From positions 1 to 28,599 of the IMG/VR virus record IMGVR_UViG_3300029266_001779: a stretch of DNA of 28,599 nucleotides, one strand, 5' to 3'. This DNA is from a virus. Positions 479 to 24,723 of the stretch are shown here, one piece after another (positions within the stretch are counted from its first letter, which is position 1; each line of letters opens with the position of its first letter). Below the pieces are notes generated by a model. The model was not told the DNA's origin. It saw nothing but the letters and a program-made list of their open reading frames with translations, and searched no databases. A program made the translations under genes and the position numbers.

Positions 479-738
479 AGAAGAAAAAGTTACCTAAATA
501 CATACAAGATAAATTTAAGAAGCCACAATTTAAAGTAGGGGACAGAGTTAAATTTGAATTCCTAGGAGAAACTGGTATAGGTACTATATCAAAGATACAA
601 AATTTTAGTGATACAGTAAATTATATGGTACGGTATGGTAAGTATTCATACCCATGCGGATTGCAGATCAAAGAATATAGTAGTTATTATGCTGCTAGTA
701 TTGATTATGATGAATCAAAAAAGCTTCAAAAAAATTAG
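475..738 (+). CDS. Small SH3/KOW-like hypothetical protein
   Basis: An 87-residue protein. After a Lys-rich start, residues 18-45 read FKVGDRVKFEFLGETGIGTI, the usual look of a small SH3-like or KOW-type beta barrel (VGDxV followed by a G-rich turn). Such folds bind RNA, DNA or peptides, but nothing here fixes the ligand. The C-terminus, KKLQKN, is encoded by an AAGCTT box plus A-tract that also forms the upstream part of the promoter at 735-766, so those last residues may be dictated by the promoter. The start is coupled by a four-base overlap to the preceding gene. Confidence 0.6.
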   Translation: MKKKKLPKYIQDKFKKPQFKVGDRVKFEFLGETGIGTISKIQNFSDTVNYMVRYGKYSYPCGLQIKEYSSYYAASIDYDESKKLQKN

Positions 739-766
739 GATTTGTGAGAAAATGTCCTTATATTTA
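721..766 (+). promoter_or_regulatory. Phage promoter of the AAGCT/TTWG/TATMTTTA family (copy 1)
   Basis: AAGCTT at 721-726, TTAG at 735-738, a 20-base spacer and TATATTTA at 759-766, followed by a short A/T-rich leader to the ATG at 787. The spacer ends in CCT like most other copies. Confidence 0.7.
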
Positions 767-3614: not shown

Positions 3615-3646
3615 TTAGGTTTTACGGTATTTTCACCTTATATTTA
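3601..3646 (+). promoter_or_regulatory. Phage promoter of the AAGCT/TTWG/TATMTTTA family (copy 2)
   Basis: AAGCTT 3601-3606, TTAG 3615-3618, a 20-base spacer containing TTTACGG, and TATATTTA 3639-3646. It is almost identical to copy 3 and drives the gene at 3667. Confidence 0.75.
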
Positions 3647-3666: not shown

Positions 3667-4080
3667 ATGAATAGTAAGCAAACAGAAGAGTTCAAGAAAG
3701 TAGTTTTAGAGTTAGATAAGTATGATCTTAATGATCATGTTAGCCTTGGTATAGGCGATGCTGAGAATGAGTCAGGTAAGAAGACCAAGCATATATATGC
3801 GTATTGGTTGGATACCGTAGCCGCTAAGAAGAGTGTAGATATGCTCCATCTGCCAGTCCATTATATATTAAAAGAGGTATGTAAGTGTGAAGAGATGAAC
3901 AAGTTCTTTAGTGGAGAGTTGTTTGCAGAAGGTGTAAATACAAAGGTTGCTTGGATAAAGGCCGACCATGAAGATAAGATAGCTTATTTAAAGGCTGAAC
4001 CAAATGCCCATCCAGCTTTGTTTCCGGCATGGTTGGAAGGCAATAAAGAATTAGTTCGAAAAAAGCTTGAAAAAAATTAG
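3667..4080 (+). CDS. Hypothetical protein
   Basis: A 137-residue soluble protein, not recognised. It has an acidic helical N-terminus (KQTEEFKKVVLELDKYDL), a central HLPVHYILKEVCKCEEM segment with two Cys, and a C-terminal ALFPAWLEGNKELV helix. It sits right behind promoter copy 2, and its ATG has the AGAGATATG context. Its C-terminus, KKLEKN, is encoded by the AAGCTT box of promoter copy 3, paralleling KKLQKN of the protein at 475-738. An early-expressed host-takeover protein is a reasonable guess from context only. Confidence 0.65.
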   Translation: MNSKQTEEFKKVVLELDKYDLNDHVSLGIGDAENESGKKTKHIYAYWLDTVAAKKSVDMLHLPVHYILKEVCKCEEMNKFFSGELFAEGVNTKVAWIKADHEDKIAYLKAEPNAHPALFPAWLEGNKELVRKKLEKN

Positions 4081-4108
4081 GATTTACGGATTATTTACCT
4101 TATATTTA
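4063..4108 (+). promoter_or_regulatory. Phage promoter of the AAGCT/TTWG/TATMTTTA family (copy 3)
   Basis: AAGCTT 4063-4068 inside the end of the preceding gene, TTAG 4077-4080 overlapping its stop codon, a 20-base spacer with TTTACGG, then TATATTTA 4101-4108. The leader to ATG 4129 matches copy 2 nearly base for base. Confidence 0.75.
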
Positions 4109-6532: not shown

Positions 6533-6564
6533 TTAGGAATCGTGAGCTTTTATCCTTATCTTTA
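6533..6564 (+). promoter_or_regulatory. Phage promoter, TTWG/TATMTTTA family (copy 4, no AAGCT box)
   Basis: TTAG 6533-6536, a 20-base spacer ending in CCT and TATCTTTA 6557-6564. The AAGCT box found in six other copies is missing. An A/T-rich leader of about 28 bases precedes ATG 6593. Confidence 0.65.
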
Positions 6565-7163: not shown

Positions 7164-7200
7164 AAAGATTTGCCGTTACGAAAATTTATCCTTATCTTTA
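7155..7200 (+). promoter_or_regulatory. Phage promoter of the AAGCT/TTWG/TATMTTTA family (copy 5)
   Basis: AAGCTG 7155-7160, TTTG 7169-7172, a 20-base spacer starting CCGTTACGA, and TATCTTTA 7193-7200. Downstream gene starts at 7231. Confidence 0.75.
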
Positions 7201-10068: not shown

Positions 10069-10114
10069 AAGCTTCAAAAAGCTTTGCCTTTATGATTTAT
10101 TTACCTTATATTTA
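10069..10114 (+). promoter_or_regulatory. Phage promoter of the AAGCT/TTWG/TATMTTTA family (copy 6)
   Basis: AAGCTT 10069-10074, TTTG 10083-10086, a 20-base spacer beginning CCTTTATGA and ending CCT, and TATATTTA 10107-10114. It precedes the gene group starting at 10142. Confidence 0.75.
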
Positions 10115-12592: not shown

Positions 12593-13009
12593 ATGGGAAC
12601 ACTAACAAACTTTGGCACATCGCCATTCGATATTTTATTCAGAAACTTTTTCGATCAAGAAGGAGAGTATGAACCTTTCAACCAAATCAGAGTCAATCAC
12701 CCAGTAGATATATATGAAGCTAATGATAGCCTCAATATTGATATTGCATGCGTTGGCTTAACAAAAAAAGATATTGATCTTACTATAGAGGGAGATATTT
12801 TAAGAGTTGAATATAAGAAGGCCATTAGTAATAATGATGAGTCTCAATATATTCAGCGCAATATAGCAAAAAGAGCATTTAATTTTGGGTGGAGAATCTC
12901 TAGAAGATTTGACCTTTCATTATTAGAAGCAAAGTTACAAAATGGATTATTACATTTGGAAGCACCGCTTACAGAAGATAATAAACCTAAAACAGTTACA
13001 ATAAAATAA
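12593..13009 (+). CDS. Hsp20-family small heat-shock protein
   Basis: A 138-residue holdase chaperone of the alpha-crystallin type. The N-terminal arm (residues 1-34) is rich in Phe (FDILFRNFFDQ). The crystallin domain starts at HPVDIYEAN and continues through GLTKKDIDLTIEGDILRV to FDLSLLEAKLQNGLLHLEAP, the family's hallmark F.L......A.L.NGLL.....P. The C-terminal KTVTIK supplies an I-x-I-like anchor. Such proteins bind unfolding proteins without ATP and are known in T4-like cyanophages. Here it could protect capsid or host proteins during late infection. The gene is a separate unit: a late-type promoter motif, a long leader, a strong AAGGAG and a flanking inverted repeat, consistent with an acquired cassette. 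Confidence 0.9.
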   Translation: MGTLTNFGTSPFDILFRNFFDQEGEYEPFNQIRVNHPVDIYEANDSLNIDIACVGLTKKDIDLTIEGDILRVEYKKAISNNDESQYIQRNIAKRAFNFGWRISRRFDLSLLEAKLQNGLLHLEAPLTEDNKPKTVTIK

Positions 13010-13233: not shown

Positions 13234-13265
13234 TTTGCCTTTACGAGATATTATACTTATATTTA
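13234..13265 (+). promoter_or_regulatory. Phage promoter, TTWG/TATMTTTA family (copy 7, no AAGCT box); leaderless
   Basis: TTTG 13234-13237, a 20-base spacer starting CCTTTACGA, TATATTTA 13258-13265. Only three bases separate it from ATG 13269, so the transcript should begin at or next to the start codon. Confidence 0.75.
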
Positions 13266-13268
13266 GAT

Positions 13269-14321
13269 ATGGAAGATAAAGTAAGAATAGGCTATGCATG
13301 TGTCAATATGACACTTACTAATAGACCTAATAAGTTAGGAGGTAGAGTAACTACCTCAAGAACAGCAAGAAAAGCAACATGGTATCCAGATAATTTATCG
13401 ATACTTAGTGAACGAGCATTAGCCAATGCTAAGGACTTACTTCACTATTTGAAATGGAATGAAGAGAATAAGATACGATTGTTTCGTATAGGTTCTGAGT
13501 TATTTCCGTGGCATGATCAATATGAATTACATCAGTTACCTGATTATGAAGAGATAAGTGAAGCATTACATACCGCCGGAGATTATGCGCGTGAACATAA
13601 CCATCGGTTGACAACCCATCCTGGACCGTTTCATGTATTGGGTTCGCCTACAATGGATGTAGTAGATCGATCTATAATTAGTTTAGAAAGACATTCTCAG
13701 TTATTTGATTTATTAGGATATGCACCGTCATATGATAATAAGATCAATATACACATAGCCGGAGCATATGGCGATAGAGAATCAACTGCTAAACGCTGGA
13801 TCAATGGTTATAATCGTTTATCTGATGAATGTAAGGCTAGAGTGGTTGTAGAAAATGATGATAAGCCTAGTTTATACAGTGTTAAGCAATTATATGAGTT
13901 ATTTCATCAGAAGATAGGCATTCCTATTACATTCGATTATTTTCACCATACATTTCATACCGATGAATTAACAGAACATGAAGCATTAGAAATGGCCGGT
14001 AGTACATGGCCTAGTGATGTTATACAATGTTGTCATTATTCAGAATCTAGACGAATTGAGAAAAAGAATTATTTAGCAGAAGTATGTAGTAAACATAATA
14101 TAGAATGGGATCAGATAGATGAATGGCCAACGTTTGCAAAATACAAAAAAGAATTCTCCAAGATAAGAGAACAGGCTCATGCCGATTACGTATTGGATCC
14201 TATAGAAAATTATGGACATCGTATAGATGTTGTATTGGAAGCCAAAGCCAAAGAGTTGGCAGTATTCAAGTATCGTGATATTTATACAAAAAAAAAAAGA
14301 AAGATAAGTTATGAAAGATAA
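13269..14321 (+). CDS. uvsE: UV-damage endonuclease UvsE (UVDE family)
   Basis: A 350-residue TIM-barrel, metal-dependent endonuclease that nicks DNA 5' of UV photoproducts, starting an excision route independent of UvrABC. Family segments in order are RIGYACVNMTL (6-16), RIGSELFPW (73-81), TTHPGPFHVLGSP (115-127), NIHIAGAYGDR (160-170), VVENDDKPSL (193-202), ITFDYFHHTFH (220-230) and IQCCHYSESR (252-261). These hold the expected metal-binding His, Glu and Asp residues. Length is normal for the family, though the last 40 residues (ending TKKKRKISYER) are very basic. A leaderless promoter lies immediately upstream, and the end overlaps the next gene by 11 bases. It would repair sunlight damage to phage DNA. 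Confidence 0.9.
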   Translation: MEDKVRIGYACVNMTLTNRPNKLGGRVTTSRTARKATWYPDNLSILSERALANAKDLLHYLKWNEENKIRLFRIGSELFPWHDQYELHQLPDYEEISEALHTAGDYAREHNHRLTTHPGPFHVLGSPTMDVVDRSIISLERHSQLFDLLGYAPSYDNKINIHIAGAYGDRESTAKRWINGYNRLSDECKARVVVENDDKPSLYSVKQLYELFHQKIGIPITFDYFHHTFHTDELTEHEALEMAGSTWPSDVIQCCHYSESRRIEKKNYLAEVCSKHNIEWDQIDEWPTFAKYKKEFSKIREQAHADYVLDPIENYGHRIDVVLEAKAKELAVFKYRDIYTKKKRKISYER

Positions 14322-14481
14322 AGATAATGTTTTAAGAGAACTAGACGAAATTGATAATATGATATTCATATTAGCTGATCTAGCCGGAAAGCAAGCAGTT
14401 GACACAAATGAAGCAGTTCGTAGATTAACAGAAATAAGAAGAAAATTAAAATTTGTATTTGATAGAGTAACTATTAGTTAA
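14311..14481 (+). CDS. Small helical hypothetical protein
   Basis: A 56-residue, probably all-helical protein (NVLRELDEIDNMIFILADLA, then AVRRLTEIRRKLKFVFD). The gene overlaps the end of uvsE by 11 bases and stops four bases before the next start, consistent with a shared transcript. No family is recognised. Confidence 0.55.
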   Translation: MKDKDNVLRELDEIDNMIFILADLAGKQAVDTNEAVRRLTEIRRKLKFVFDRVTIS

Positions 14482-14484
14482 TGA

Positions 14485-15525
14485 ATGAAGAAAACTTTTC
14501 CATATATAATATTAACAGCTGCATTATCATTAGCCGGCATTGCAGCATATTATAGTGTATTTGGATTAAGTAAATTATTTTCAGCACAAGCAGCAGCCGT
14601 AATAATTATGGCATCGGCATTAGAAGTATCTAAATTAATTACAGCAACATTCTTACATAGATTCTGGAATAAGATAAATATATTACTAAAAACATATCTT
14701 ACAGCAGCAGTCGTTATATTAATGATGATAACTTCATTAGGTATATATGGATTCTTAACATCTGCATATCAAACCACATCCGATGAATTATTAATATTAG
14801 ATAAACAGATTAATGTTGTTGAAATGAAAAAAAATAGATTTCAAGAACAATTAGATAGTTATTCAGAAGAAAAGAAACAATTAGCTAGTTCAATATCTGA
14901 ATTGACTAAAGGTCTTTCTAATAATAAAATACAATGGCGAGACAAAGAATCCGGGCAAATAATTACATCAACATCAAGTAAAACTAGAAAAGTATTGCAA
15001 GAACAACTCGATGATTTCAAAGTACAACGTAACAATGTTTCATTAAAAATAGAAACACTATCCGATTCTATAACTAATTTAGATCTACAAGTGTTAGGTA
15101 TTAATACTAATTCACAAGTAACTTCAGAAGTAGGTCCATTAAAATATATTTCAAAGATAAGTAATATACCAATGGATAATATAGTTAATTATTTTGTATT
15201 AGCATTTATATTTGTATTTGACCCATTAGCAATATTATTATTAATATCAGCAAATAAGGCATTTAGTATAGTACAAAACAAATCCGAAGAGTTAAAAGAA
15301 CCGATAGAAGATTTTAAGGATCGTTTTAGACCTCCACATCCTAGTGATGCATATGAAGAAGAGTCTGAACAAAGAATGAATATTATAGGACAAAATGGAA
15401 ATGATGGATTACATTATGATTCAGGTTCTATTGAAAAAGAAAATATATATAAAGAAGAAGATAAGGAACCTATTCAAACAGAAGAAGTTCCGGGAAAACG
15501 AACATCAAATGCATATTGGTCATGA
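14485..15525 (+). CDS. Four-span membrane protein with periplasmic or cytoplasmic coiled coil
   Basis: A 346-residue protein. Membrane spans are likely at about 4-24, 32-53, 69-92 and 242-263 (the last containing FVFDPLAILLLISANKAF). A long coiled coil (about 100-212) links spans 3 and 4, and an acidic disordered tail follows (about 285-346). A VFDPLA-type last span after a coiled coil is a layout I associate with uncharacterised phage membrane proteins; no enzyme motif is visible. It may scaffold something at the inner membrane, such as DNA entry, exclusion or assembly. Coupled by ATGA to the next gene. Confidence 0.65.
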   Translation: MKKTFPYIILTAALSLAGIAAYYSVFGLSKLFSAQAAAVIIMASALEVSKLITATFLHRFWNKINILLKTYLTAAVVILMMITSLGIYGFLTSAYQTTSDELLILDKQINVVEMKKNRFQEQLDSYSEEKKQLASSISELTKGLSNNKIQWRDKESGQIITSTSSKTRKVLQEQLDDFKVQRNNVSLKIETLSDSITNLDLQVLGINTNSQVTSEVGPLKYISKISNIPMDNIVNYFVLAFIFVFDPLAILLLISANKAFSIVQNKSEELKEPIEDFKDRFRPPHPSDAYEEESEQRMNIIGQNGNDGLHYDSGSIEKENIYKEEDKEPIQTEEVPGKRTSNAYWS

Positions 15526-16022
15526 AAAAAGAAAAAATAAAATATAAAACAGTTACACGTAATGGAGAACGATTTATGGTATGTCGTAATAGTAATCCAA
15601 ACAATAAATATTATAAAGGTACTAGTTGTACAAATTATGAATTAGTAAGTGCTACTAGTGTAGCAGTATTATGTAATAATTGTGTACGAAGTATTACAGC
15701 ACCACCAGAGATATCTAAAGGATATATATCTAAAGGTAGAGTTAGAGGTTGGCAGTTTATGAAAGAATTTGTACATAGTGATGGATCTGTATTTCATAAA
15801 GGTGTAGAACAACCTAAGTTAAAAGGAACATTGTCTCCCACTCCAAAACCAGAACCAAAAAAGAAATTATCTAAACAAGAAAAAATAGATTTAAAAAATA
15901 AATTAGCCGAGCAAATGGTATTTGTTCGTAGAGAATTAAATAAGTCTATACTTAAGAAAGATATAAGATCAAATCAGTCATCTCTTAAGAGAATTGAAAG
16001 ACGATTAAAAAAGCTCATTTAA
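15522..16022 (+). CDS. Cys4 zinc-ribbon-like protein
   Basis: A 166-residue protein. Cys21, Cys36, Cys51 and Cys54 (CRNSNPN, GTSCTNYE, LCNNCVR) are spaced as a possible zinc-binding ribbon. A GWQFMKEFVHSDG segment follows, then a Pro/Lys linker and a C-terminal basic coiled coil (KIDLKNKLAEQMVFVRRELN). ATG 15522 overlaps the upstream stop by four bases and is a better start than the TTG six bases earlier. The C-terminal RLKKLI is encoded by the AAGCT box of promoter copy 8. The layout suggests nucleic-acid or protein binding; function unknown. Confidence 0.6.
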   Translation: MKKEKIKYKTVTRNGERFMVCRNSNPNNKYYKGTSCTNYELVSATSVAVLCNNCVRSITAPPEISKGYISKGRVRGWQFMKEFVHSDGSVFHKGVEQPKLKGTLSPTPKPEPKKKLSKQEKIDLKNKLAEQMVFVRRELNKSILKKDIRSNQSSLKRIERRLKKLI

Positions 16023-16056
16023 TCTTTGCCTTTACGAAAAAAAGTTATTATATTTA
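16011..16056 (+). promoter_or_regulatory. Phage promoter of the AAGCT/TTWG/TATMTTTA family (copy 8); leaderless
   Basis: AAGCTC 16011-16016 within the end of the preceding gene, TTTG 16025-16028, a 20-base spacer starting CCTTTACGA, TATATTTA 16049-16056. ATG 16060 follows after three bases. Confidence 0.75.
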
Positions 16057-16059
16057 GGT

Positions 16060-16680
16060 ATGAGTTTATATGAAGAAAAGCCAAAGGCCACAACTAAAAA
16101 AGATGATAAAGAAGATGATGTTGATAGTCCATATTCAAAACTATCAGATGTATTATCTAACTTAGTCGATTATGATGATTCTGTTATTTACCTAAATGGT
16201 GATATTACAAGTGAATCAATGGTAGATTTTATGATTAAAGTAAGATCTATTATTTCAAATCGTGATGAAAAAATAAAAGATGATCCTATCAATGTTATAA
16301 TTAACTCCGATGGTGGAGATGTATATGATATGTTGGGATTAGTTGATTATATTGAATCACTTTCCGTTAAAGTTAATACCATATGTAGAGGAAAAGCATT
16401 TTCAGCTGCAGCAATTTTATTGGCCCATGGTACCGGAGTACGGATGTCAAGTAAACGTTCATCAGTAATGTTTCATCAATCCTCTAGTTTCATAGGTGGT
16501 AAGATGGGAGATATATCAGCATATGTAGATAATGTGAAAACGATAGAAAACATTGTTTATGAGTTACTAGAAGCTAAAACTAAAAAAGATGCTAGTTGGT
16601 GGAAAGATAAAATGAAAACAGACTTTTTTGTAACACCAGAAGAGTTATTAGAATATGGCGTAATTGATCAAATAATATAA
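16060..16680 (+). CDS. clpP: ClpP-type serine protease
   Basis: A 206-residue protein of normal ClpP length. It carries the full catalytic triad: Ser115 in GKAFSAAAIL, His139 in VMFHQSS and Asp188 in KTDFFVTPEELLEYGVID, the exact context of the Asp in bacterial ClpP. The INSDGGDVYD segment (81-90) forms the substrate-stabilising strand and turn. ClpP assembles into a barrel and degrades proteins delivered by a Clp ATPase; phage versions may also mature heads or pair with the host ClpX/ClpA. The first 25 residues are a charged extension (KPKATTKKDDKEDD) not usual in bacterial ClpP. No phage Clp ATPase is visible in the window. Its own leaderless promoter sets it apart from upstream genes. Confidence 0.88.
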   Translation: MSLYEEKPKATTKKDDKEDDVDSPYSKLSDVLSNLVDYDDSVIYLNGDITSESMVDFMIKVRSIISNRDEKIKDDPINVIINSDGGDVYDMLGLVDYIESLSVKVNTICRGKAFSAAAILLAHGTGVRMSSKRSSVMFHQSSSFIGGKMGDISAYVDNVKTIENIVYELLEAKTKKDASWWKDKMKTDFFVTPEELLEYGVIDQII

Positions 16681-16685
16681 AAAAA

Positions 16686-17435
16686 ATGAGTTTAACAGCA
16701 GAAGAAATATCAATCAATTGGAGTAAATTATTAGAAATAATTGAAACAGAATTCTCCGGAGATAGGAGAGAAAAATTATTAAATCTTTATAATAAGTATG
16801 AAGATCGTATAAGTATAGCACCGGCTTCTAGTGTCGATCATTATCATAATGCATTCATAGGAGGTTATGTAGATCACGTCTTAAGGGTTATTAGAAATGC
16901 AAAAGAAGTATATAAATTATGGACCACTAGTGGTGCAGACATGAGTGGATATACTAAAGAAGAATTAATATTTGTTGCATTGAATCATGATTTGGGTAAA
17001 ATAGGATTTCCTGGAGATGGTAATGAGGTTTATATACATAATGATTCAGAATGGCATAGAAAGAATCAAGGTAAAATATTTAAAGTTAATCCTAATAATC
17101 CATTTGCGTTAGTAAATGATTTATCTATATGGTTATTACAACATCATGATATAAAAATATCATTCAATGAAATGATAAGTATTAAGTGTACTGATGGGTT
17201 ATATGATGAAAGTAATAAAGCTTATTTTATTTCTAGAATGAAAGAATCTAAATTAAGAATTAATTTACCATATGTAATGCATCAAGCTGATTTAATGGCG
17301 GCTAGAATAGAATATGAGATGTGGGTAAAAGATGAACCAACCTTATCTCCACCTAAACAGAAACCTTCTAAATTATCAGAGGCAGCTAGTAAAGTAGATG
17401 CATCTAAAATATTTGGGGAATTATTTGGAGATTAA
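16686..17435 (+). CDS. HD-domain phosphohydrolase
   Basis: A 249-residue protein. The HD signature appears as His54 (DHYHNAFIGG), His64 (YVDHVLRV) and His101-Asp102 (ALNHDLGKIGF), with Lys105 following, plus a later QHHDI (about 156-160) and a possible closing Asp near QADLMAARIE. HD enzymes hydrolyse phosphate esters of nucleotides, cyclic dinucleotides or nucleic acids using metal ions. The substrate cannot be read here; nucleotide recycling or removal of a host signal nucleotide such as (p)ppGpp or a cyclic oligonucleotide are options. It starts five bases after clpP and one base before the next gene, so it shares the clpP transcript. Confidence 0.75.
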   Translation: MSLTAEEISINWSKLLEIIETEFSGDRREKLLNLYNKYEDRISIAPASSVDHYHNAFIGGYVDHVLRVIRNAKEVYKLWTTSGADMSGYTKEELIFVALNHDLGKIGFPGDGNEVYIHNDSEWHRKNQGKIFKVNPNNPFALVNDLSIWLLQHHDIKISFNEMISIKCTDGLYDESNKAYFISRMKESKLRINLPYVMHQADLMAARIEYEMWVKDEPTLSPPKQKPSKLSEAASKVDASKIFGELFGD

Positions 17436-17436
17436 T

Positions 17437-17721
17437 ATGGGAATTACAATTATCGGTTTATCAGTATTATTAGTAAGTTCTATTTTATTTATTATTAATT
17501 TAACACGTAAGATAGAAGCAAACGAAGATTACATTGAAGAACTAGAAACATCTAATACAGATTTTTATCAATTCTTTAAAGATATAAAAACGCAAGTAAA
17601 TAAATCCAATTCACATTTAAAACAAATAGATAGATTAGGATCGTTTGAATCAGATGATGAAACAGGATATGTATTTAAAGAAATAAATGATATAGTAGAA
17701 AAATTAAATAAAAGATTTTAA
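17437..17721 (+). CDS. Small membrane-anchored coiled-coil protein
   Basis: A 94-residue protein. The N-terminal 22 residues are one membrane span (ITIIGLSVLLVSSILFIINL), followed by a charged coiled coil (RKIEANEDYIEELETSNTDF onward). I chose ATG 17437, just after the preceding stop; the upstream in-frame ATG 17398 lies inside the HD gene. Its stop overlaps the sigma-factor start by one base. Function unknown. Confidence 0.6.
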   Translation: MGITIIGLSVLLVSSILFIINLTRKIEANEDYIEELETSNTDFYQFFKDIKTQVNKSNSHLKQIDRLGSFESDDETGYVFKEINDIVEKLNKRF

Positions 17722-18482
17722 TGAACGCAATAGAAGAATTTTATAAATGGGTAACAATTGAAGAGACATTACCCCCTCGTGCTAGAAGAGGTCGTAAGCC
17801 TAGTAAAAAACAATACTTTACTTATATCACGCAAGAAGCAATTGTAGCATATAATAAAGAAACAGGAGGCGATGTTGATCTACGTAATAAAATTTATAGA
17901 GAATATATTGACTATCCATTTAATAAGTTAGTAGAAAATATATATCATACATTTAAGTTTAGTTATTTCGATGTACCATATGAAGATATTAAGTGTGAAG
18001 TAGTTGCATTCTTAAATGAAAAAATAACTAAATTTACTGAAGGTAAAGGTAAGGCATTTTCATATTTTTCTATTATTGCTAAGAATTATCTTATTATACA
18101 AAATAATTCAAACTATGTAAAATTTAAAAGACGTGCTGATACGATAGAAATTGACGAACATCGTGATGTAGTAAATGAAATGTCAATGACTAGTTATCAA
18201 GAATCTTTGAGAGACTTTTGTAAATTATGGTGTGATTGGTATGACACTAATTTGAATATGATCTTTACCAATAAAAGAGATATTTTAGTAGCAGATACTG
18301 TTGTTGAATTATTTAGAATGGCAGATAATATAGAAAATTTTAACAAAAAAGCAATTTATATTTTAATACGTGAAAGAACAGGATTAAAAACTCAAAATAT
18401 TACTAAAGTAATTAATATTATGAGAAGAGATTTTGCAAAGATGTTAATATCCTATCAACAATCCGGTAGGCTTCATTCATAA
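17721..18482 (+). CDS. gp55-like late-transcription sigma factor
   Basis: A 253-residue protein. The part from about 60 to 150 has sigma-70 region 2 features and resembles T4 gp55: NKLVENIYHTFKFSYFDVPY, YEDIKCEVVAFLNEKITKF, then GKGKAFSYFSIIAKNYLI, the aromatic helix contacting the -10 region in sigma factors. An Arg/Lys-rich segment near the start (RARRGRKPSKKQ) could bind DNA. gp55 binds host RNA polymerase and directs it to late promoters with only a -10-like box. The larger size (gp55 of T4 is 185 residues) reflects extra N- and C-terminal parts. Position just before the tail module fits a role in expressing it. Confidence 0.75.
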   Translation: MNAIEEFYKWVTIEETLPPRARRGRKPSKKQYFTYITQEAIVAYNKETGGDVDLRNKIYREYIDYPFNKLVENIYHTFKFSYFDVPYEDIKCEVVAFLNEKITKFTEGKGKAFSYFSIIAKNYLIIQNNSNYVKFKRRADTIEIDEHRDVVNEMSMTSYQESLRDFCKLWCDWYDTNLNMIFTNKRDILVADTVVELFRMADNIENFNKKAIYILIRERTGLKTQNITKVINIMRRDFAKMLISYQQSGRLHS

Positions 18483-18493
18483 TATTAATCTTT

Positions 18494-18503
18494 TATATTT
18501 ATT
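18494..18503 (+). promoter_or_regulatory. ATATTTAT late-type promoter candidate before the tail module
   Basis: TATATTTATT right after the sigma-factor gene, then AAAAGGA and ATG 18516. There is no TTWG at the -33 distance, as expected of a gp55-type promoter. Confidence 0.4.
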
Positions 18504-18515
18504 TAAAAGGATTGT

Positions 18516-18926
18516 ATGAACGAATATGAATTGTTTGCAGGTACTACATTTTCAGATCTCATGAAAGATGTATATCATAACTCTAAAAAAAAATCTAGAC
18601 AAATAGATTCTTTAATACAAGATCTCAAACCTCATATTAAAAATGTAGGCGATGCTACTATTATAGCTCCTATACTAAAAGATTATCTAGAAGTATCAGT
18701 AAAAAATGATGATGCATTAGTTAAATTAGCTGCAGTAGTCCAACGTATAATTTCAGCGACCAGTAAAGATGAAGATGGCAATGAATTTGGAATGACTGAT
18801 GAAGAACGTAGTCGTCTCTTAGAAGAAGCTGAAAATGAAATAAAAATAATAAAACAATCACAAGATAAGGATACCCATGGCGACGTTTCTGGCAGCGGAA
18901 GTAGTAAACAATCAGATCTCATTTAA
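18516..18926 (+). CDS. Hypothetical virion or tail-assembly protein
   Basis: A 136-residue, mostly helical acidic protein (MNEYELFAGTTFSDLMKDVY; LLEEAENEIKIIKQSQD), ending in a Gly/Ser-rich tail (GDVSGSGSSKQSDLI). It has an AAAAGGA ribosome site. It overlaps the hub gene out of frame by 50 bases, and the low-complexity tail is encoded in the overlap. No family is recognised; position suggests a baseplate-assembly role. Confidence 0.6.
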   Translation: MNEYELFAGTTFSDLMKDVYHNSKKKSRQIDSLIQDLKPHIKNVGDATIIAPILKDYLEVSVKNDDALVKLAAVVQRIISATSKDEDGNEFGMTDEERSRLLEEAENEIKIIKQSQDKDTHGDVSGSGSSKQSDLI

Positions 18927-19881
18927 AGAGACCGAGAGTAAGAAAACGCAACTCCCATTTCCTCAGGGAGCAATTAAATTTAAATTGTTTAATATACGAA
19001 GTAAGGCCAGAACGGTAGAAATGGCAATGCCATTAGATCCTTATACAACTGAAATTCCTTTAGTGGGTGAATATGTACTAATTATTCAGTTATTAGATAA
19101 AAATGCAGATCCATATTTTCAAAAACACCAATATTACTATACTCAAATATTAAATGTATATGATAGAGTCAATGAAAATAAATTATTTGGTATACAATCA
19201 TCATCGCCTCCAACTGTACCTGGTAATGAGAAGGGTATGCAAAAGAAAAAGGCTCAAGTAATTGATGATAATGCAGATATATCTAGATTACAATCATATG
19301 AAGGCGATAAAATATTTTATTCTAGATTCGGATCTTCGATTCGATTTTCTTCAAATAATATAAAAGACCAAGAAAATATTACATATGAGAATAAAAAGAC
19401 GCCATGGGAAGGTGGTGAAGTTCTAAGCCCCATTCTAATGTTAACTAATGGTTATAAACAAATAGGAAAAAAATTAACTATAGAAGATCCTAAAACAGAT
19501 AAATCGTTAATGTATTTGACATTTGATCAAAAAATTAATATCGATTCATCACAATCAAAATTAGGAAAAGGCATTTCAAATAGTAGTATAAAAGATTATT
19601 CCGGGGCACAGGCAATAATATCTGCAGATAGATTATTATTTAATGCAAAAGAAGATCATATTTTATTATCCGGTGCTAAATCAGTTAATATTGCTACTCC
19701 ATCATGGGCAATGGACATGAATCAGTTTTTTGATTTGTTTGATGAGTTTCTGGAAGAGGTGATGAAGACAGCTCGAGCTGAATCAAATTATTTAACTGGA
19801 GTTGGACCGACTACCGGCAATCCTACTTTGTTAGCAGGTGCAACAAAGATAAAAACCAAACTAATACAAATGAGGCAGTAG
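18877..19881 (+). CDS. Baseplate hub/spike protein (gp5-like)
   Basis: A 334-residue protein. Residues 20-110 look like an OB-fold domain (IPLVGEYVLIIQLLD). RLQSYEGDKIFYSRFGSSIRFSS (about 148-170) resembles the GRFGNSIRFG motif I associate with T4-like hub proteins of marine phages. The C-terminal region has beta-solenoid-style strands (AQAIISADRLLFNAKEDHIL, LSGAKSVNIATPSWAMDMNQ) and a final helix. Such proteins form the central spike that pierces the cell envelope. The lysozyme domain of T4 gp5 is not seen. ATG 18877 starts inside the preceding gene; the first residues look authentic (MATFLAAEVVNNQISF). Confidence 0.7.
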   Translation: MATFLAAEVVNNQISFKETESKKTQLPFPQGAIKFKLFNIRSKARTVEMAMPLDPYTTEIPLVGEYVLIIQLLDKNADPYFQKHQYYYTQILNVYDRVNENKLFGIQSSSPPTVPGNEKGMQKKKAQVIDDNADISRLQSYEGDKIFYSRFGSSIRFSSNNIKDQENITYENKKTPWEGGEVLSPILMLTNGYKQIGKKLTIEDPKTDKSLMYLTFDQKINIDSSQSKLGKGISNSSIKDYSGAQAIISADRLLFNAKEDHILLSGAKSVNIATPSWAMDMNQFFDLFDEFLEEVMKTARAESNYLTGVGPTTGNPTLLAGATKIKTKLIQMRQ

Positions 19882-20625
19882 ATGCCAGCACTTTGGCCCA
19901 CATTTGAAAATACAGTATCTCAGTTTTTAACTAAAGGGACACTATCTCAGGACCAGTTTATTAAAATGCTAGCCAACGCATATACAGTAGCTACTACGCC
20001 AATAACAGTTAATTACTCGACAGGGCCAATTCCTCAGCCAGTACTTACAGGTATAGCTCGTCAAAAAATTTTACGGGATGCTCTCGAGAAAGTATTAAAT
20101 GCCGGTAAAGTTGCAACTAACACATTAACAGTAAAAGATTTCCTTCCAGCAGCATTAGGATTTGTAAAATATTGGACTCCAGGTATTGGTGTATTAATTA
20201 GCCCGTTCCCAGCACCACCACCATGTGTAGCTCCAGTAGTTGCCGGCACATTTCTTTCAGATGACGAATTCAAGTCAGCATTGCCATCTAATATAGCCTT
20301 TGATGCGGCTGCATCTCTCGCGGCACTAGGTAACGCAGACGGCGATACTAAATCTTTATATTCTAGAATAACTAGTCAGGCAGTAGTTAATGACCCAGTA
20401 GTAATAGTACCTAGTCCTATTATTTTATTTCCTGGCAATCCATTATTATTAGCTAAAGATTTACATTTTGCTATGACTAGAAGTTTTAGTACGCGAGCTA
20501 CTGCAACTAATTTAACAAAAGCATTTAGTAATCATCTATCAACAATCATGGGAATTTATATTGGATTACTACCACCAGGTTCAGTACCACCATTTACTAT
20601 TGTAGTATTTAACGGAATAACATAA
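19882..20625 (+). CDS. Structural protein, unassigned
   Basis: A 247-residue, Ala/Thr/Pro-rich protein of virion-like composition, with PFPAPPPCVAPVVAGTFLSD in the middle and Pro-rich turns near the end. It begins at the base after the hub gene stop. The N-terminal 40 residues (FENTVSQFLTKGTLSQDQFI) are helical. No family is identified; placement between hub and wedge genes suggests a baseplate component. Confidence 0.6.
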   Translation: MPALWPTFENTVSQFLTKGTLSQDQFIKMLANAYTVATTPITVNYSTGPIPQPVLTGIARQKILRDALEKVLNAGKVATNTLTVKDFLPAALGFVKYWTPGIGVLISPFPAPPPCVAPVVAGTFLSDDEFKSALPSNIAFDAAASLAALGNADGDTKSLYSRITSQAVVNDPVVIVPSPIILFPGNPLLLAKDLHFAMTRSFSTRATATNLTKAFSNHLSTIMGIYIGLLPPGSVPPFTIVVFNGIT

Positions 20626-20644
20626 CTGAATTAGTATACCATGA

Positions 20645-20652
20645 TATTTATA
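20645..20652 (+). promoter_or_regulatory. ATATTTAT late-type promoter candidate
   Basis: TATTTATA in the 41-base gap between genes, followed by AAAAAAGGATAAGTA and ATG 20667. No -33 TTWG. Confidence 0.4.
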
Positions 20653-20666
20653 AAAAAGGATAAGTA

Positions 20667-21119
20667 ATGAAATCAGAATTATTCGTAAAACTATTACGTA
20701 AAGTTATAAGAGAAGAAGTACAATCAGTTGTACGTAAAGAATTGAGATCTGTGTTAACTGAACAAAAACCAGATCATTCAAAGGCAATAACTCATGGGTT
20801 AGATCTATCTAATATGGTATCTAACACAACGGCTAAACCATCCAGGAAGTATGTTAAAGATACTATGTTAAATGATATACTAAATGAAACTTCTGGGTTT
20901 AATAGTAATGGCAATACACGACAAGAATATCCATCGATGGCAAATTTTAAAAGTGAAATGGCACAATCGTTTGGACAACCATCTGCGGCACCATTAACAG
21001 ATATTACAGGAAAGCCTGTTGATACTAATAATAAAAATGTTGCAACAGTTGTAAATGCAATGACAAAAGATTATTCATCATTGATGAAGGCAATTGATAA
21101 GAAAAAAGGTAAAAGATAA
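20667..21119 (+). CDS. Small structural or scaffold-like protein
   Basis: A 150-residue protein with a very basic amphipathic helix at the start (LLRKVIREEVQSVVRKELRS) and a long polar, Asn/Ser/Thr-rich, probably disordered middle. No family is recognised. It has an AAGGA ribosome site, and its stop touches the start of the gp25-like gene. Confidence 0.6.
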   Translation: MKSELFVKLLRKVIREEVQSVVRKELRSVLTEQKPDHSKAITHGLDLSNMVSNTTAKPSRKYVKDTMLNDILNETSGFNSNGNTRQEYPSMANFKSEMAQSFGQPSAAPLTDITGKPVDTNNKNVATVVNAMTKDYSSLMKAIDKKKGKR

Positions 21120-21686
21120 TTGGCTAGACAAGTATTTCAATATCAACCATTTAATGAAACTCCGGATAAACCATTAGGTATATTGCTACCTTTAAATAAA
21201 GATGCAGGAGGATCTAGATCTTTACAATCTACTTATAATGCAGCTCCTGGAGCCGGCGGAGGTGTATTTGCATCTTCTTATACAACGCAAGAACAGGGAT
21301 TGAGTAATTTAAAAAATTTAATACTTACTAAAAAAGGTGAACGATATTTTTTACCAGATTTTGGAACTAATATACAATCAGCATTATTTGAAAATAGTAC
21401 AATTGATTTAGAATTACAATTACAAGAAACGGTAACAGCTGACATTGAAAGATGGTTGCCATATATTAAAATAAATGAATTGAAAATTGTAAGAAATATT
21501 GATAATCAGCAAATAGCTATTAGGCTAACATTTAGTGTTACTGAAAATGGAGCAAATCAAGAAATAGTAATTTTTGCATCGCCGGATTCTGTAGTAGTAC
21601 AAGATGGAGGAACTTCTGAAGTAGAATTGCAATTAGCTCCAGTTGCAGCAGGTGGCGGTAGTAGTGGAGCCGGAGGAGGATATTAA
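21120..21686 (+). CDS. Baseplate wedge protein gp25
   Basis: A 188-residue protein of the gp25/GPW family. The core runs from YTTQEQGLSNLKNLILTKKG through GERYFLPDFGTNIQSALFE, the family's conserved G-ER---P-FG-----LFE, to an ITADIERWLPYI-like helix (residues 100-118) and strands KINELKIVRNIDNQQIAIRL. It forms the lysozyme-like inner wedge that contacts gp6 and the sheath start. The gene begins with TTG, in TAATTG right at the preceding stop; no nearby ATG fits. The Gly/Ala-rich insert (residues 42-52) and Gly-rich C-terminus (AAGGGSSGAGGGY) are unusual additions. Its stop overlaps the gp6 start. Confidence 0.85.
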   Translation: MARQVFQYQPFNETPDKPLGILLPLNKDAGGSRSLQSTYNAAPGAGGGVFASSYTTQEQGLSNLKNLILTKKGERYFLPDFGTNIQSALFENSTIDLELQLQETVTADIERWLPYIKINELKIVRNIDNQQIAIRLTFSVTENGANQEIVIFASPDSVVVQDGGTSEVELQLAPVAAGGGSSGAGGGY

Positions 21687-23563
21687 TGGAATTAGTAAAA
21701 AAAGATATAAAATATTTAAATAAAGATTTTGGACAATTCAGGCAGAACCTAATAAACTTTGCTAAAAATTATTTTCCGGATACATATTCGGATTTTAATG
21801 AAACATCGCCTGGAATGATGTTTATAGAAATGGCATCATATGTAGGTGATGTTCTTTCATTTTATTCAGATCAATCCTTTAAAGAAAGTTTATTGAGTAG
21901 TGCACAAGAGGATAGTAATGTACTACAGATGGCTCAATTATTTGGATTTAAATCAAAATTAAATTCACCATCTAATTGTATGGTAGATATATTTCAACTA
22001 GTGCCATCTATAGGATCTGGTACTAATTCTCTTCCAGATTATCGTTATGCATTAAATGTTAATACCGGTGCTAGATTAATAGGAGGTAATAATACTTTAT
22101 TTAGGACATTAGATTCCGTAGATTTTAGTGTTGATTCGGCTAATGATCCTTTAGATATATCTGTATACGAATTAGATTCTAATGGCAATGTGCAGTACTA
22201 TTTACTAAAAAAACATGTACCGGTACAATCCGGAGAAGTTATTACATCGACATTCTCATTCGGCAATCCTAAGGCATATGATAAAATTACATTGCCAGAC
22301 AATAATTTAATAGATATTGTATCGGTAGTAGACAGTAGAGGAAATACTTGGTATGAAGTAGATTATCTAGCACAAGATACTATATTTGAAGATACATTGA
22401 ATATTAAATTTAATGATGAAACATTAGCCGAACATAAATCAACGGTACCGTATATATTAAAATTAAAAAGAACGCCTAGACGATTCATAACAAGATTAAG
22501 AGATGATAATAAAACAGAATTAATATTTGGTTCAGGTATAAGTTCTGATGCAGATGAAGAATTAATACCAAATCCAAAGAATGTAGGAATAGGGTTAGAA
22601 TATTTAACTAGAACAACAACTACTAATGTAGATCCCACTAACTTTTTAAAGACTCGTACATATGGATTAGCTCCAGATAATATCACATTAACTATTACAT
22701 ATACAGTTGGCGGCGGAATAAAAGATAATGTTGTTGTTAATTCAATAACTAAAATTGATACAATATCATATAATGATAGTATTAATTTCACCGGAGTAGA
22801 TAAAACATTTGTTAAAAGTACTGTAGCAGTAAATAATACAACGCCGGCAGTTGGTGGATTGGAAAAACAAAACATAGAAAGCTTAAGACAAAGCGCAATG
22901 GCATCATTTGCAGCACAGAATAGAGCAATAACTAGAGAAGACTATATAGTACGTTGTTATTCAATGCCAAGGAAATTTGGTTCGGTAGCTAAAGCATATG
23001 TAATTGGAGATATGCAACAAGATTCATCTGATGTATCATATCCGCGTGAAACAATCTCTAATCCTTTAGCATTAAATTTATATACTTTAGCATTTGATAA
23101 TAATAAACGTTTAGTGCCATTAAATCAAGCATTGAAGCAAAATTTAAGAACATATTTATCAAACTTCAGAATGTTAACAGATGCATTAAATATAAAATCG
23201 GCCCATATAATTAATATAGGAGTTGATTTTGAAATTATACCTAGACCTAGATTTAATAGTAATGAAGTTTTATTGAGATGTATTGATCTGCTAAAACGTT
23301 TATTTGAAATAGATTCAATGCAAATTAATATGCCATTAAATATATCTAACCTAATGACGGAGTTAGATAAGGTTGAGGGAGTTCAGAGCGTATCTAAATT
23401 TGAAATTATTAATTTATATGATCTAACTAAAGGATATGTGGGTAATTTATATGATATTGAAACAGCAACAAAAAATAATATTGTATATCCTAGTTTAGAT
23501 CCTAGTATATTTGAAATAAGATTTCCTAATGGAGATATTAAAGGAAAAATAACAAGTAAGTAA
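21686..23563 (+). CDS. Baseplate wedge protein gp6
   Basis: A 625-residue protein, close to T4 gp6 length (660). The start (LNKDFGQFRQNLINFAKNYF, then DFNETSPGMMFIEMASYVGD) is the typical opening of the gp6/baseplate J-like family, followed by YSDQSFKESLLSSAQEDSNV. Near the middle, RAITREDYIVRCYSMPRKFG resembles the conserved AVT.eDY......p..g segment. gp6 forms the ring that binds gp25 and gp53 and links the wedges. Overlaps gp25 by one base, so it is co-translated. Confidence 0.88.
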   Translation: MELVKKDIKYLNKDFGQFRQNLINFAKNYFPDTYSDFNETSPGMMFIEMASYVGDVLSFYSDQSFKESLLSSAQEDSNVLQMAQLFGFKSKLNSPSNCMVDIFQLVPSIGSGTNSLPDYRYALNVNTGARLIGGNNTLFRTLDSVDFSVDSANDPLDISVYELDSNGNVQYYLLKKHVPVQSGEVITSTFSFGNPKAYDKITLPDNNLIDIVSVVDSRGNTWYEVDYLAQDTIFEDTLNIKFNDETLAEHKSTVPYILKLKRTPRRFITRLRDDNKTELIFGSGISSDADEELIPNPKNVGIGLEYLTRTTTTNVDPTNFLKTRTYGLAPDNITLTITYTVGGGIKDNVVVNSITKIDTISYNDSINFTGVDKTFVKSTVAVNNTTPAVGGLEKQNIESLRQSAMASFAAQNRAITREDYIVRCYSMPRKFGSVAKAYVIGDMQQDSSDVSYPRETISNPLALNLYTLAFDNNKRLVPLNQALKQNLRTYLSNFRMLTDALNIKSAHIINIGVDFEIIPRPRFNSNEVLLRCIDLLKRLFEIDSMQINMPLNISNLMTELDKVEGVQSVSKFEIINLYDLTKGYVGNLYDIETATKNNIVYPSLDPSIFEIRFPNGDIKGKITSK

Positions 23564-23571
23564 GGAAACAG

Positions 23572-24723
23572 ATGTATCAATTATATTTCGCAGAAAGAGA
23601 TACGACATTATATGAAAAATTTCCAGATCAAAATACTGGAATAGATCAGATATTAGAATTAACAAAAGTTAGTTCTGGGTCTAAGTTAAATGGCATTATA
23701 CAAGCTAATACAACTAATACACGAATATTATTAGATTTTGGGACACAGATATCTTCAATTACAACAGATGTTAGTAATGGAAAAATACCTCCTATAGGCA
23801 CTGGAATTAACTCTTCTTCAATATTTTTAAATTTAAAAGCATCTGATGCATCTGATCTTCCATTATCTTATAATATTAAAGCATTTCCTATTTCAGAATC
23901 GTGGAATAATGGCACCGGAACTCATGCTGATGTTCCAGAAACTACTAATGGAGCATCATGGCATTATAAAGACGCAAAGAATCCTGGTACAGAATGGAAC
24001 ACTGGCTCTGCTGCTAGTTATAATAATCTTGGTGTATTTGATACTCAAGGCGGTGGTACATGGATGACAGGGTCTGGATATGAAGCTAGCCAATCATTTC
24101 AAAATCAATCACCAGATATTAGAATGGATGTTACTGATATAGTACAACGATGGGTAGATGCAGATATTACTAATAATGGATTTATAATTAAACGAAAATA
24201 CGAAGAAGAAATTAATGGATCTATATTAGGTTCTATCAAATTCTTTGGAAGAGAATCACATACTATATTTTTACCTAGATTAGAAGTTGCATATAATGAT
24301 GTTAATTTATCTGGTACTGGTTCATTTGATGTAATTAGTACAGATATGTACGTGCCATATATAAAAAATATAAGGCCAGAATATAGATCCGGAGATATAA
24401 CAAAATTTAGAATTGGCGTAAGGCCTGAATTTCCAATAGCTAGTTATGCTACGAGCTCTTTCTATATAACAAGAGATAGATTGCCAGTAACAAGTTATTA
24501 TAGTATATCTGATACTGTAACTAATGAAGTTTTAATTCCGTTTGATGAAGGCGTAAAGAGTGCTACTCAAATATCTTGTGATAGCAATGGAAGCTTTTTT
24601 AAATTAAATTTAAATACCTTTTTACCAGAACGATATTATAAAATAGCATTAAAGGTTATTAGAGATAATGGTGATGATACGCAAATACATGATGATAGAT
24701 TTTATTTTAAGGTTGTTAAATAA
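23572..24723 (+). CDS. Tail/baseplate structural protein with DNRLRE-like beta domain
   Basis: A 383-residue, beta-rich protein. The beginning (ERDTTLYEKFPDQNTGIDQI, then RILLDFG) has the pattern of the DNRLRE-like extracellular beta-sandwich (D-T-x-y-E...N-G-D-I--L; S--LL-FD). Residues 170-215 (IRMDVTDIVQRWVDADITNN, GFIIKRK) continue it in the usual DVT..V..W....NNGF.l form. A second half (about 250-383) is another beta region. Such domains are common in adhesive or structural parts of phage and bacterial surfaces. Here it is placed between gp6 and the large wedge gene, so it is likely part of the baseplate exterior. Confidence 0.65.
   Translation: MYQLYFAERDTTLYEKFPDQNTGIDQILELTKVSSGSKLNGIIQANTTNTRILLDFGTQISSITTDVSNGKIPPIGTGINSSSIFLNLKASDASDLPLSYNIKAFPISESWNNGTGTHADVPETTNGASWHYKDAKNPGTEWNTGSAASYNNLGVFDTQGGGTWMTGSGYEASQSFQNQSPDIRMDVTDIVQRWVDADITNNGFIIKRKYEEEINGSILGSIKFFGRESHTIFLPRLEVAYNDVNLSGTGSFDVISTDMYVPYIKNIRPEYRSGDITKFRIGVRPEFPIASYATSSFYITRDRLPVTSYYSISDTVTNEVLIPFDEGVKSATQISCDSNGSFFKLNLNTFLPERYYKIALKVIRDNGDDTQIHDDRFYFKVVK

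Follow-up and report, generated by a model that had tools for sequence, protein, structure and literature searches.

When a promoter ends only three bases before a start codon, where does the message begin, and how is it translated? The question is raised by two genes, uvsE and clpP, in a 28,599-base stretch of viral DNA (IMG/VR record IMGVR_UViG_3300029266_001779, positions 1 to 28,599), referred to below as the window. The uvsE promoter (TTTGCCTTTACG ... TATATTTA; 13234..13265, plus strand; 30.8 bits with the family matrix) consists of a -33-like TTTG, 20 bases and the -7-like box TATATTTA (13258..13265), after which the three-base spacer GAT (13266..13268) leads to ATG 13269 of a 350-amino acid ultraviolet (UV) damage endonuclease (13269..14321; Pfam UvdE 5.9e-52, residues 7-264; phrog_8420). 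The clpP gene is arranged in the same way on the same strand, with the promoter TTTGCCTTTACG ... TATATTTA at 16025..16056 (TTTG at 16025; 33.0 bits), the -7-like box TATATTTA at 16049..16056, the three-base spacer GGT at 16057..16059 and ATG 16060 of a 206-amino acid Clp-type protease (16060..16680; Pfam CLP_protease 3.5e-30).

Both genes are predicted to be leaderless: judging from the position of the promoter, from which the 5' ends of the transcripts are deduced, it is likely that uvsE and clpP are translated from leaderless messenger RNAs (mRNAs) made from a variant flavobacterial sigma-A promoter. The host polymerase with sigma-A would transcribe both genes from the phage's variant promoter (TTTG, 20 bases, TATATTTA), and, with the start codon occupying the expected site of transcription start, the mRNA would begin at the AUG or about one base away from it. 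The ribosome would then have to use the 5'-terminal AUG itself, in a putative mode of binding that is feasible for a phylum with mRNAs devoid of Shine-Dalgarno sites.

Two classes of promoter-to-gene distance

The plus strand of the window carries eight strong copies of a two-part motif, TTTG or TTAG followed by 20 bases and then TATATTTA or TATCTTTA, with the first T lying 24 bases 5' of the box in all eight. The TTTG form is found at uvsE and clpP and in two leadered copies, 7169..7200 (30 bases to ATG 7231) and 10083..10114 (27 bases to ATG 10142). The remaining four copies of this promoter class have the TTAG form, reading TTAGG, and are also leadered: 735..766, 3615..3646 and 4077..4108 lie 20 bases from ATG 787, 3667 and 4129, respectively, and 6533..6564 lies 28 bases from ATG 6593. 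The layout claimed in the original prediction, three bases at uvsE and clpP and about 20-30 elsewhere, thus agrees with all eight measured copies.

The box alone is a poor signal: TATATTTA occurs 17 times on the two strands of the window, compared with a mean expectation of 12.66, and 12 of 100 shuffles reach 17. One further box with an ATG after a gap of 3, at 26012, lies inside a gene and was dismissed as coding sequence. In such AT-rich DNA, the TATATTTA beside the ATG might not be a -7 box at all, with the genes transcribed from another promoter further upstream. This is highly improbable, because what is enriched is the two-part motif in its fixed 24-base register, which is strongly strand-specific. 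In 96 sequences (the window and 95 related contig pieces, 1.07 Mb), a matrix trained on the eight window copies has 222 matches on the plus strand versus 2 on the minus strand at 14 bits. Furthermore, the DNA upstream of the promoter is occupied by the 3' end of the preceding gene, and it differs in one relative (L079) without loss of the motif. A scan of viral contigs with the exact pattern returned nine stretches, all from contigs already counted as close relatives of the window.

The gap was measured from the end of the box to the first ATG opening an open reading frame (ORF) of at least 40 codons, within 45 bases. Among the 151 distinct stretches of promoter plus 30 bases, 12 have no qualifying ATG ORF, leaving 139 distinct promoter-ORF pairs, in which the gap is 3 in 25 cases, 4 in 15, 5 in 3, 8 in 1 and 12-36 in 95, with the values 0-2, 6, 7 and 9-11 empty. 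The distribution is bimodal, with 43 of the 139 pairs at 3-5, one at 8 and 95 at 12 or more, and because the matrix covers the 32 promoter bases only, it cannot have created this bimodality. Since uvsE and clpP served to collect the loci, the two are over-represented among the pairs (33 and 42). The short layout occurs in five of the 28 ORF families, namely uvsE, clpP, one family in L018-L021, one in L014/L015 and a small ORF in L015, and the other 23 families have the long layout only. The gap is clearly non-random, and the short-gap genes are a class distinct from the leadered genes.

The family in L018-L021, which has a gap of 4, resembles at its N-terminus, by eye, the product of the phosphohydrolase-like gene that adjoins clpP in the window (16686-17435; phrog_28876), although it is an ORF family apart from that gene.

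A cultured phage has the same arrangement. Flavobacterium phage immuto (vB_FspM_immuto, NC_055915), which is grown on Flavobacterium sp. LMO8, was scanned with a matrix of its own and has 68 motif matches on the plus versus 28 on the minus strand at 10 bits, and 49 versus 1 at 20 bits. An ATG ORF of at least 28 codons follows 52 of the 68 plus-strand matches, with gaps of 3, 3, 4 and 4 and then of at least 11. The four short-gap genes, with promoter scores of 20.9-28.3 bits, start exactly at deposited coding sequence starts (gp020, gp238, gp217 and the glycosyltransferase gp178); the predicted 5' ends of short-gap transcripts in NC_055915 are at 16431, 20739, 29855 and 52406, give or take one base. 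Two matches have a gap of 11, one inside the DNA polymerase gene, where no start is deposited, and one, of 14.9 bits, before a deposited start. Immuto resembles the window in promoter architecture, in the bimodal gaps and in a related baseplate wedge protein (41.1% identity), but differs in that other genes have the short gap and that GTTG mostly replaces TTTG; its deposited gene table lists no UV endonuclease or ClpP by name (the sequence itself was not searched). The view, already part of the original prediction, that a leaderless layout sets uvsE and clpP apart as a distinct class is strengthened by the bimodal gaps here and in immuto and by the retention of the layout in relatives.

Immuto also contains, at 67.6-73.9 kb (about 17600-23900 of the piece L166), a series of promoter-leader modules that resemble one another (GGTATCAATAATTAAAA, with leaders mostly of 28 bases) and precede successive small genes, suggesting duplicated expression cassettes.

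Start codons and the expected start of transcription

Neither uvsE nor clpP has an in-frame ATG, GTG or TTG upstream of its start. That the true start codon might instead lie downstream, behind an ordinary leader, is a general possibility that the original prediction had raised as a potential refutation; it is very unlikely, to the point of being negligible. The next in-frame methionine of UvsE is residue 14, inside the UvdE match that begins at residue 7, and that of ClpP is residue 54, well after an N-terminus that reads MS[IL]Y[ED]E in 53 of the 55 distinct orthologs and MYDE in the remaining 2. This N-terminus is common to the leadered and the short-gap layouts, so that the start is real in both. 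Upstream frame, domain and N-terminal conservation all identify the AUG as the true start codon at the two genes.

The promoter itself has most features of the Bacteroidetes sigma-A (sigma-ABfr) promoter. A TTTG about 20 bases 5' of the -7 box is present in four of the window copies (uvsE, clpP, 10083 and 7169) and replaced by TTAG in the other four; TA at -12/-11, the absence of G at -10/-9 and TTT at -8 to -6 are seen in all eight, with the box TATATTTA or TATCTTTA. At -5, where the consensus has G, all eight have A, and the promoter is therefore called a variant rather than a consensus member. It probably works like a sigma-A promoter and would be recognised by sigma-A.

Where RNA synthesis would begin can be gauged from bacteria for which box positions or leader lengths have been published. 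In many Flavobacterium johnsoniae promoters, the box is separated from the start site by 4 or 5 bases, 87% of the leaders in this species exceed 10 nucleotides, and an A at position -3 acts as a positive signal for translation (PMC6847099); in F. psychrophilum, the box lies at -12 to -5 and 5.5% of the mRNAs are leaderless (PMC9723704); in Bacteroides thetaiotaomicron, about 3.7% of the 5' untranslated regions are shorter than 10 nucleotides (PMC7366714). With a spacing of 4-5 bases, gaps of 4 and 5 (18 of the 43 short-gap genes) place the A of the ATG at +1, and a gap of 3 (25 of the 43, including both window genes) is one base short.

For calibration, 60 genomes from the class of a Parafilimonas metagenome-assembled genome (MAG) were scanned, with the reversed pattern as the control; a genome scan with UvsE had led to one Bacteroidota MAG, which served solely to identify the class to be sampled. 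The pattern TTTG-N20-TANNTTTG-N4-ATG exceeds its reversed control markedly in G038 (13 to 1) and G047 (8 to 0), which hints at bacterial lineages rich in leaderless genes.

Several observations weigh against leaderless translation from a flavobacterial sigma-A promoter. The box ends in A instead of the nearly invariant G of the Bacteroidetes TTTG / TANNTTTG promoter. At uvsE and clpP, RNA synthesis with a 4-base spacing would begin at the U of the AUG, and the bacterial genomes favour the longer gap: summed over the 60 genomes, the N4 pattern has 66 matches versus 28 reversed, and the N3 form has 40 versus 23, the 40 including five copies of one repeat in G039; in G047, there are 8 matches with gap 4 and one with gap 3. 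The host is likewise deduced indirectly: the closest match of the window's baseplate wedge protein is in Microcystis phage Mel-JY01 (49.5% identity), above immuto. Mel-JY01 itself has no plus-strand motif match at 12 bits in 49 kb and two on the other strand. The window phage, which is marine, probably infects flavobacteria.

As for the missing base, there are two possibilities: the gap-3 phage promoters initiate transcription one base sooner, or the AUG is lost from some of the transcripts. The conserved register between promoter and ATG argues for an earlier start in these phage promoters. In the leadered copies of immuto, A is found 4 bases after the box in 38 of 46 cases and T 5 bases after it in 29 of 46. 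Taken at face value, this would point to a spacing of 3 bases, but many of these copies are near-duplicates, and the pattern was therefore not counted as evidence. A T before the ATG, considered as part of a T-A initiator signal, is common to both classes (41 of 43 short-gap and 67 of 95 leadered genes) and does not discriminate between them.

The base at -3 was also compared between the classes. A purine is found there in 83 of 95 leadered versus 25 of 43 short-gap genes (Fisher 0.00026, over rows that are not independent). This relaxation in the short-gap genes weakly suggests that the DNA at -3 is untranscribed; on the opposing side, the difference does not reach significance when clpP is taken by itself (0.31; uvsE by itself, 0.03), and position -3 borders the box in gap-3 genes.

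Persistence of the layout in relatives

The layout of uvsE is steady. Of 76 distinct relatives, 31 fall below 50% identity and one row (L026, leadered with a gap of 17) is short, so that the tree comprises 44 rows with at least 50% identity. The short layout is present in 34 of these, with 8 leadered and 2 without a recognisable promoter, and the starred branches of the tree force three layout changes. Meanwhile, the promoter bases outside the motif core turn over, giving TTTGCC, TTAGGA, CTAGGA and TTTTGA forms and the boxes TATATTTA, TATCTTTA and TATATTAA. In L079, whose UvsE is 97% identical to that of the window, the DNA beyond about -40 is unrelated, and the promoter and its register to the ATG are the same.

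The layout of clpP, examined in the best 80 of 181 viral stretches encoding a relative, is mixed: among 55 distinct rows, 14 are short, 40 are long and one (L095; an 18.6-bit promoter on a long branch) has a gap of 8. Without L095, the clpP tree has two layout changes, one of them forced by starred branches; with it, three and two, respectively. Of the 81 clpP loci, 41 contain uvsE as well, and among these the short layout is present at uvsE in 40 and at clpP in 10: 31 loci combine short uvsE with long clpP, both are short in 9, and one (L113) has long uvsE with short clpP. Over the 31 distinct sequence sets, the corresponding numbers are 23, 7 and 1. A matched, regulated pair of uvsE and clpP is therefore not supported, and uvsE is the steady member. 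The label 'accessory' that the two genes had been given is not established either, given the number of viral stretches that encode a clpP relative.

In many of the more distant uvsE genes (L028-L076, about 37-44% identity), the start codon is preceded by TTGACA-like and TATATT-like boxes together with a GAGGTG-like stretch, as if for hosts that use Shine-Dalgarno initiation.

A same-strand ORF precedes both window genes, with 35 and 37 bases between its stop and the ATG. Read-through transcripts of the upstream gene might be the main template for translation of uvsE and clpP and supply a leader, the product of the abutting promoter being minor or untranslated. Such read-through fits the overall crowding, in that the promoter overlaps an upstream stop or begins no more than 7 bases from it in 41 of the 43 short-gap cases; the gap of 3, one base below the canonical spacing, also speaks for it. 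It is nevertheless rather improbable: a promoter firing into a start codon would be useless, yet the register has been kept through sequence turnover and through the change of context in L079, and the leadered clpP relatives, which by eye mostly lie as tight against the upstream gene, still have a leader of about 20 bases.

The same crowding bears on why leaderless translation of uvsE and clpP, if correctly predicted, exists at all. The promoter may simply fill the intergenic gap, with the leader lost without effect as a by-product of genome compaction; this bears on the significance of leaderless translation and does not exclude it, and its chances are judged to be slightly short of even. The crowding is more marked for the short-gap promoters (41 of 43) than for the scored leadered ones (51 of 91), and for that reason compaction may suffice to explain why uvsE keeps the short layout; that the clpP layout has changed within its tree is also in line with it. 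Conversely, tight leadered promoters are common (the same 51 of 91), and 34 of the 44 uvsE rows have kept the short gap.

Two ORFs 5' of uvsE lies a gene for an HSP20-type small heat shock protein (12593-13009; Pfam PF00011, 4.8e-09), the flanks of which carry GACACTGCGGGTC and GACCCGCGGTC; these are roughly complementary, and the repeat search did not return this pair.

Predicted leaderless initiation in a further phage group

Leaderless initiation is a known, uncommon mode of starting translation, here predicted in a further group of phages. Resistance to kasugamycin has been reported for leaderless translation (PMC5230787). The lambda cI gene is a leaderless phage gene, and the likeness lies in a phage gene whose translation is expected to begin at a 5'-terminal AUG; the difference is that here the phage, with its T4-like baseplate, is presumed to infect flavobacteria, and the genes encode a repair enzyme and a Clp protease rather than a repressor. 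Phage lambda is named as the first leaderless case in one report (PMC3160421). The leaderless mRNAs of flavobacteria and B. thetaiotaomicron share with the phage genes a -7 box of the TAnnTTTG type immediately 5' of the start codon and a phylum without Shine-Dalgarno sites. The phage genes differ from these bacterial ones in being carried by phage genomes, in having TATATTTA-type boxes, in a gap before the ATG that is most often 3 and not 4-5, and in that leaderlessness is predicted from the position of the promoter. In one open-access library, judged by titles and the beginnings of abstracts, no report of leaderless genes in Bacteroidetes phages was found.

Leaderless messages make up a small, little-studied share in Bacteroidetes, which start translation without Shine-Dalgarno pairing, and in this one phage group, the same gene follows the same promoter with a leader in some members and without one in others. 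The cultured pair of immuto and Flavobacterium sp. LMO8 makes the leaderless prediction directly testable. It is doubtful, but conceivable, that flavobacterial phages whose tails are T4-like have leaderless initiation as a gene-specific translation class maintained by selection, an idea that draws on the persistence of the uvsE layout despite promoter turnover and an altered upstream context, and on the gain and loss of the layout at clpP. If this were true, certain phage proteins could be produced under conditions that limit leader-dependent initiation, such as those in damaged cells or late in infection.

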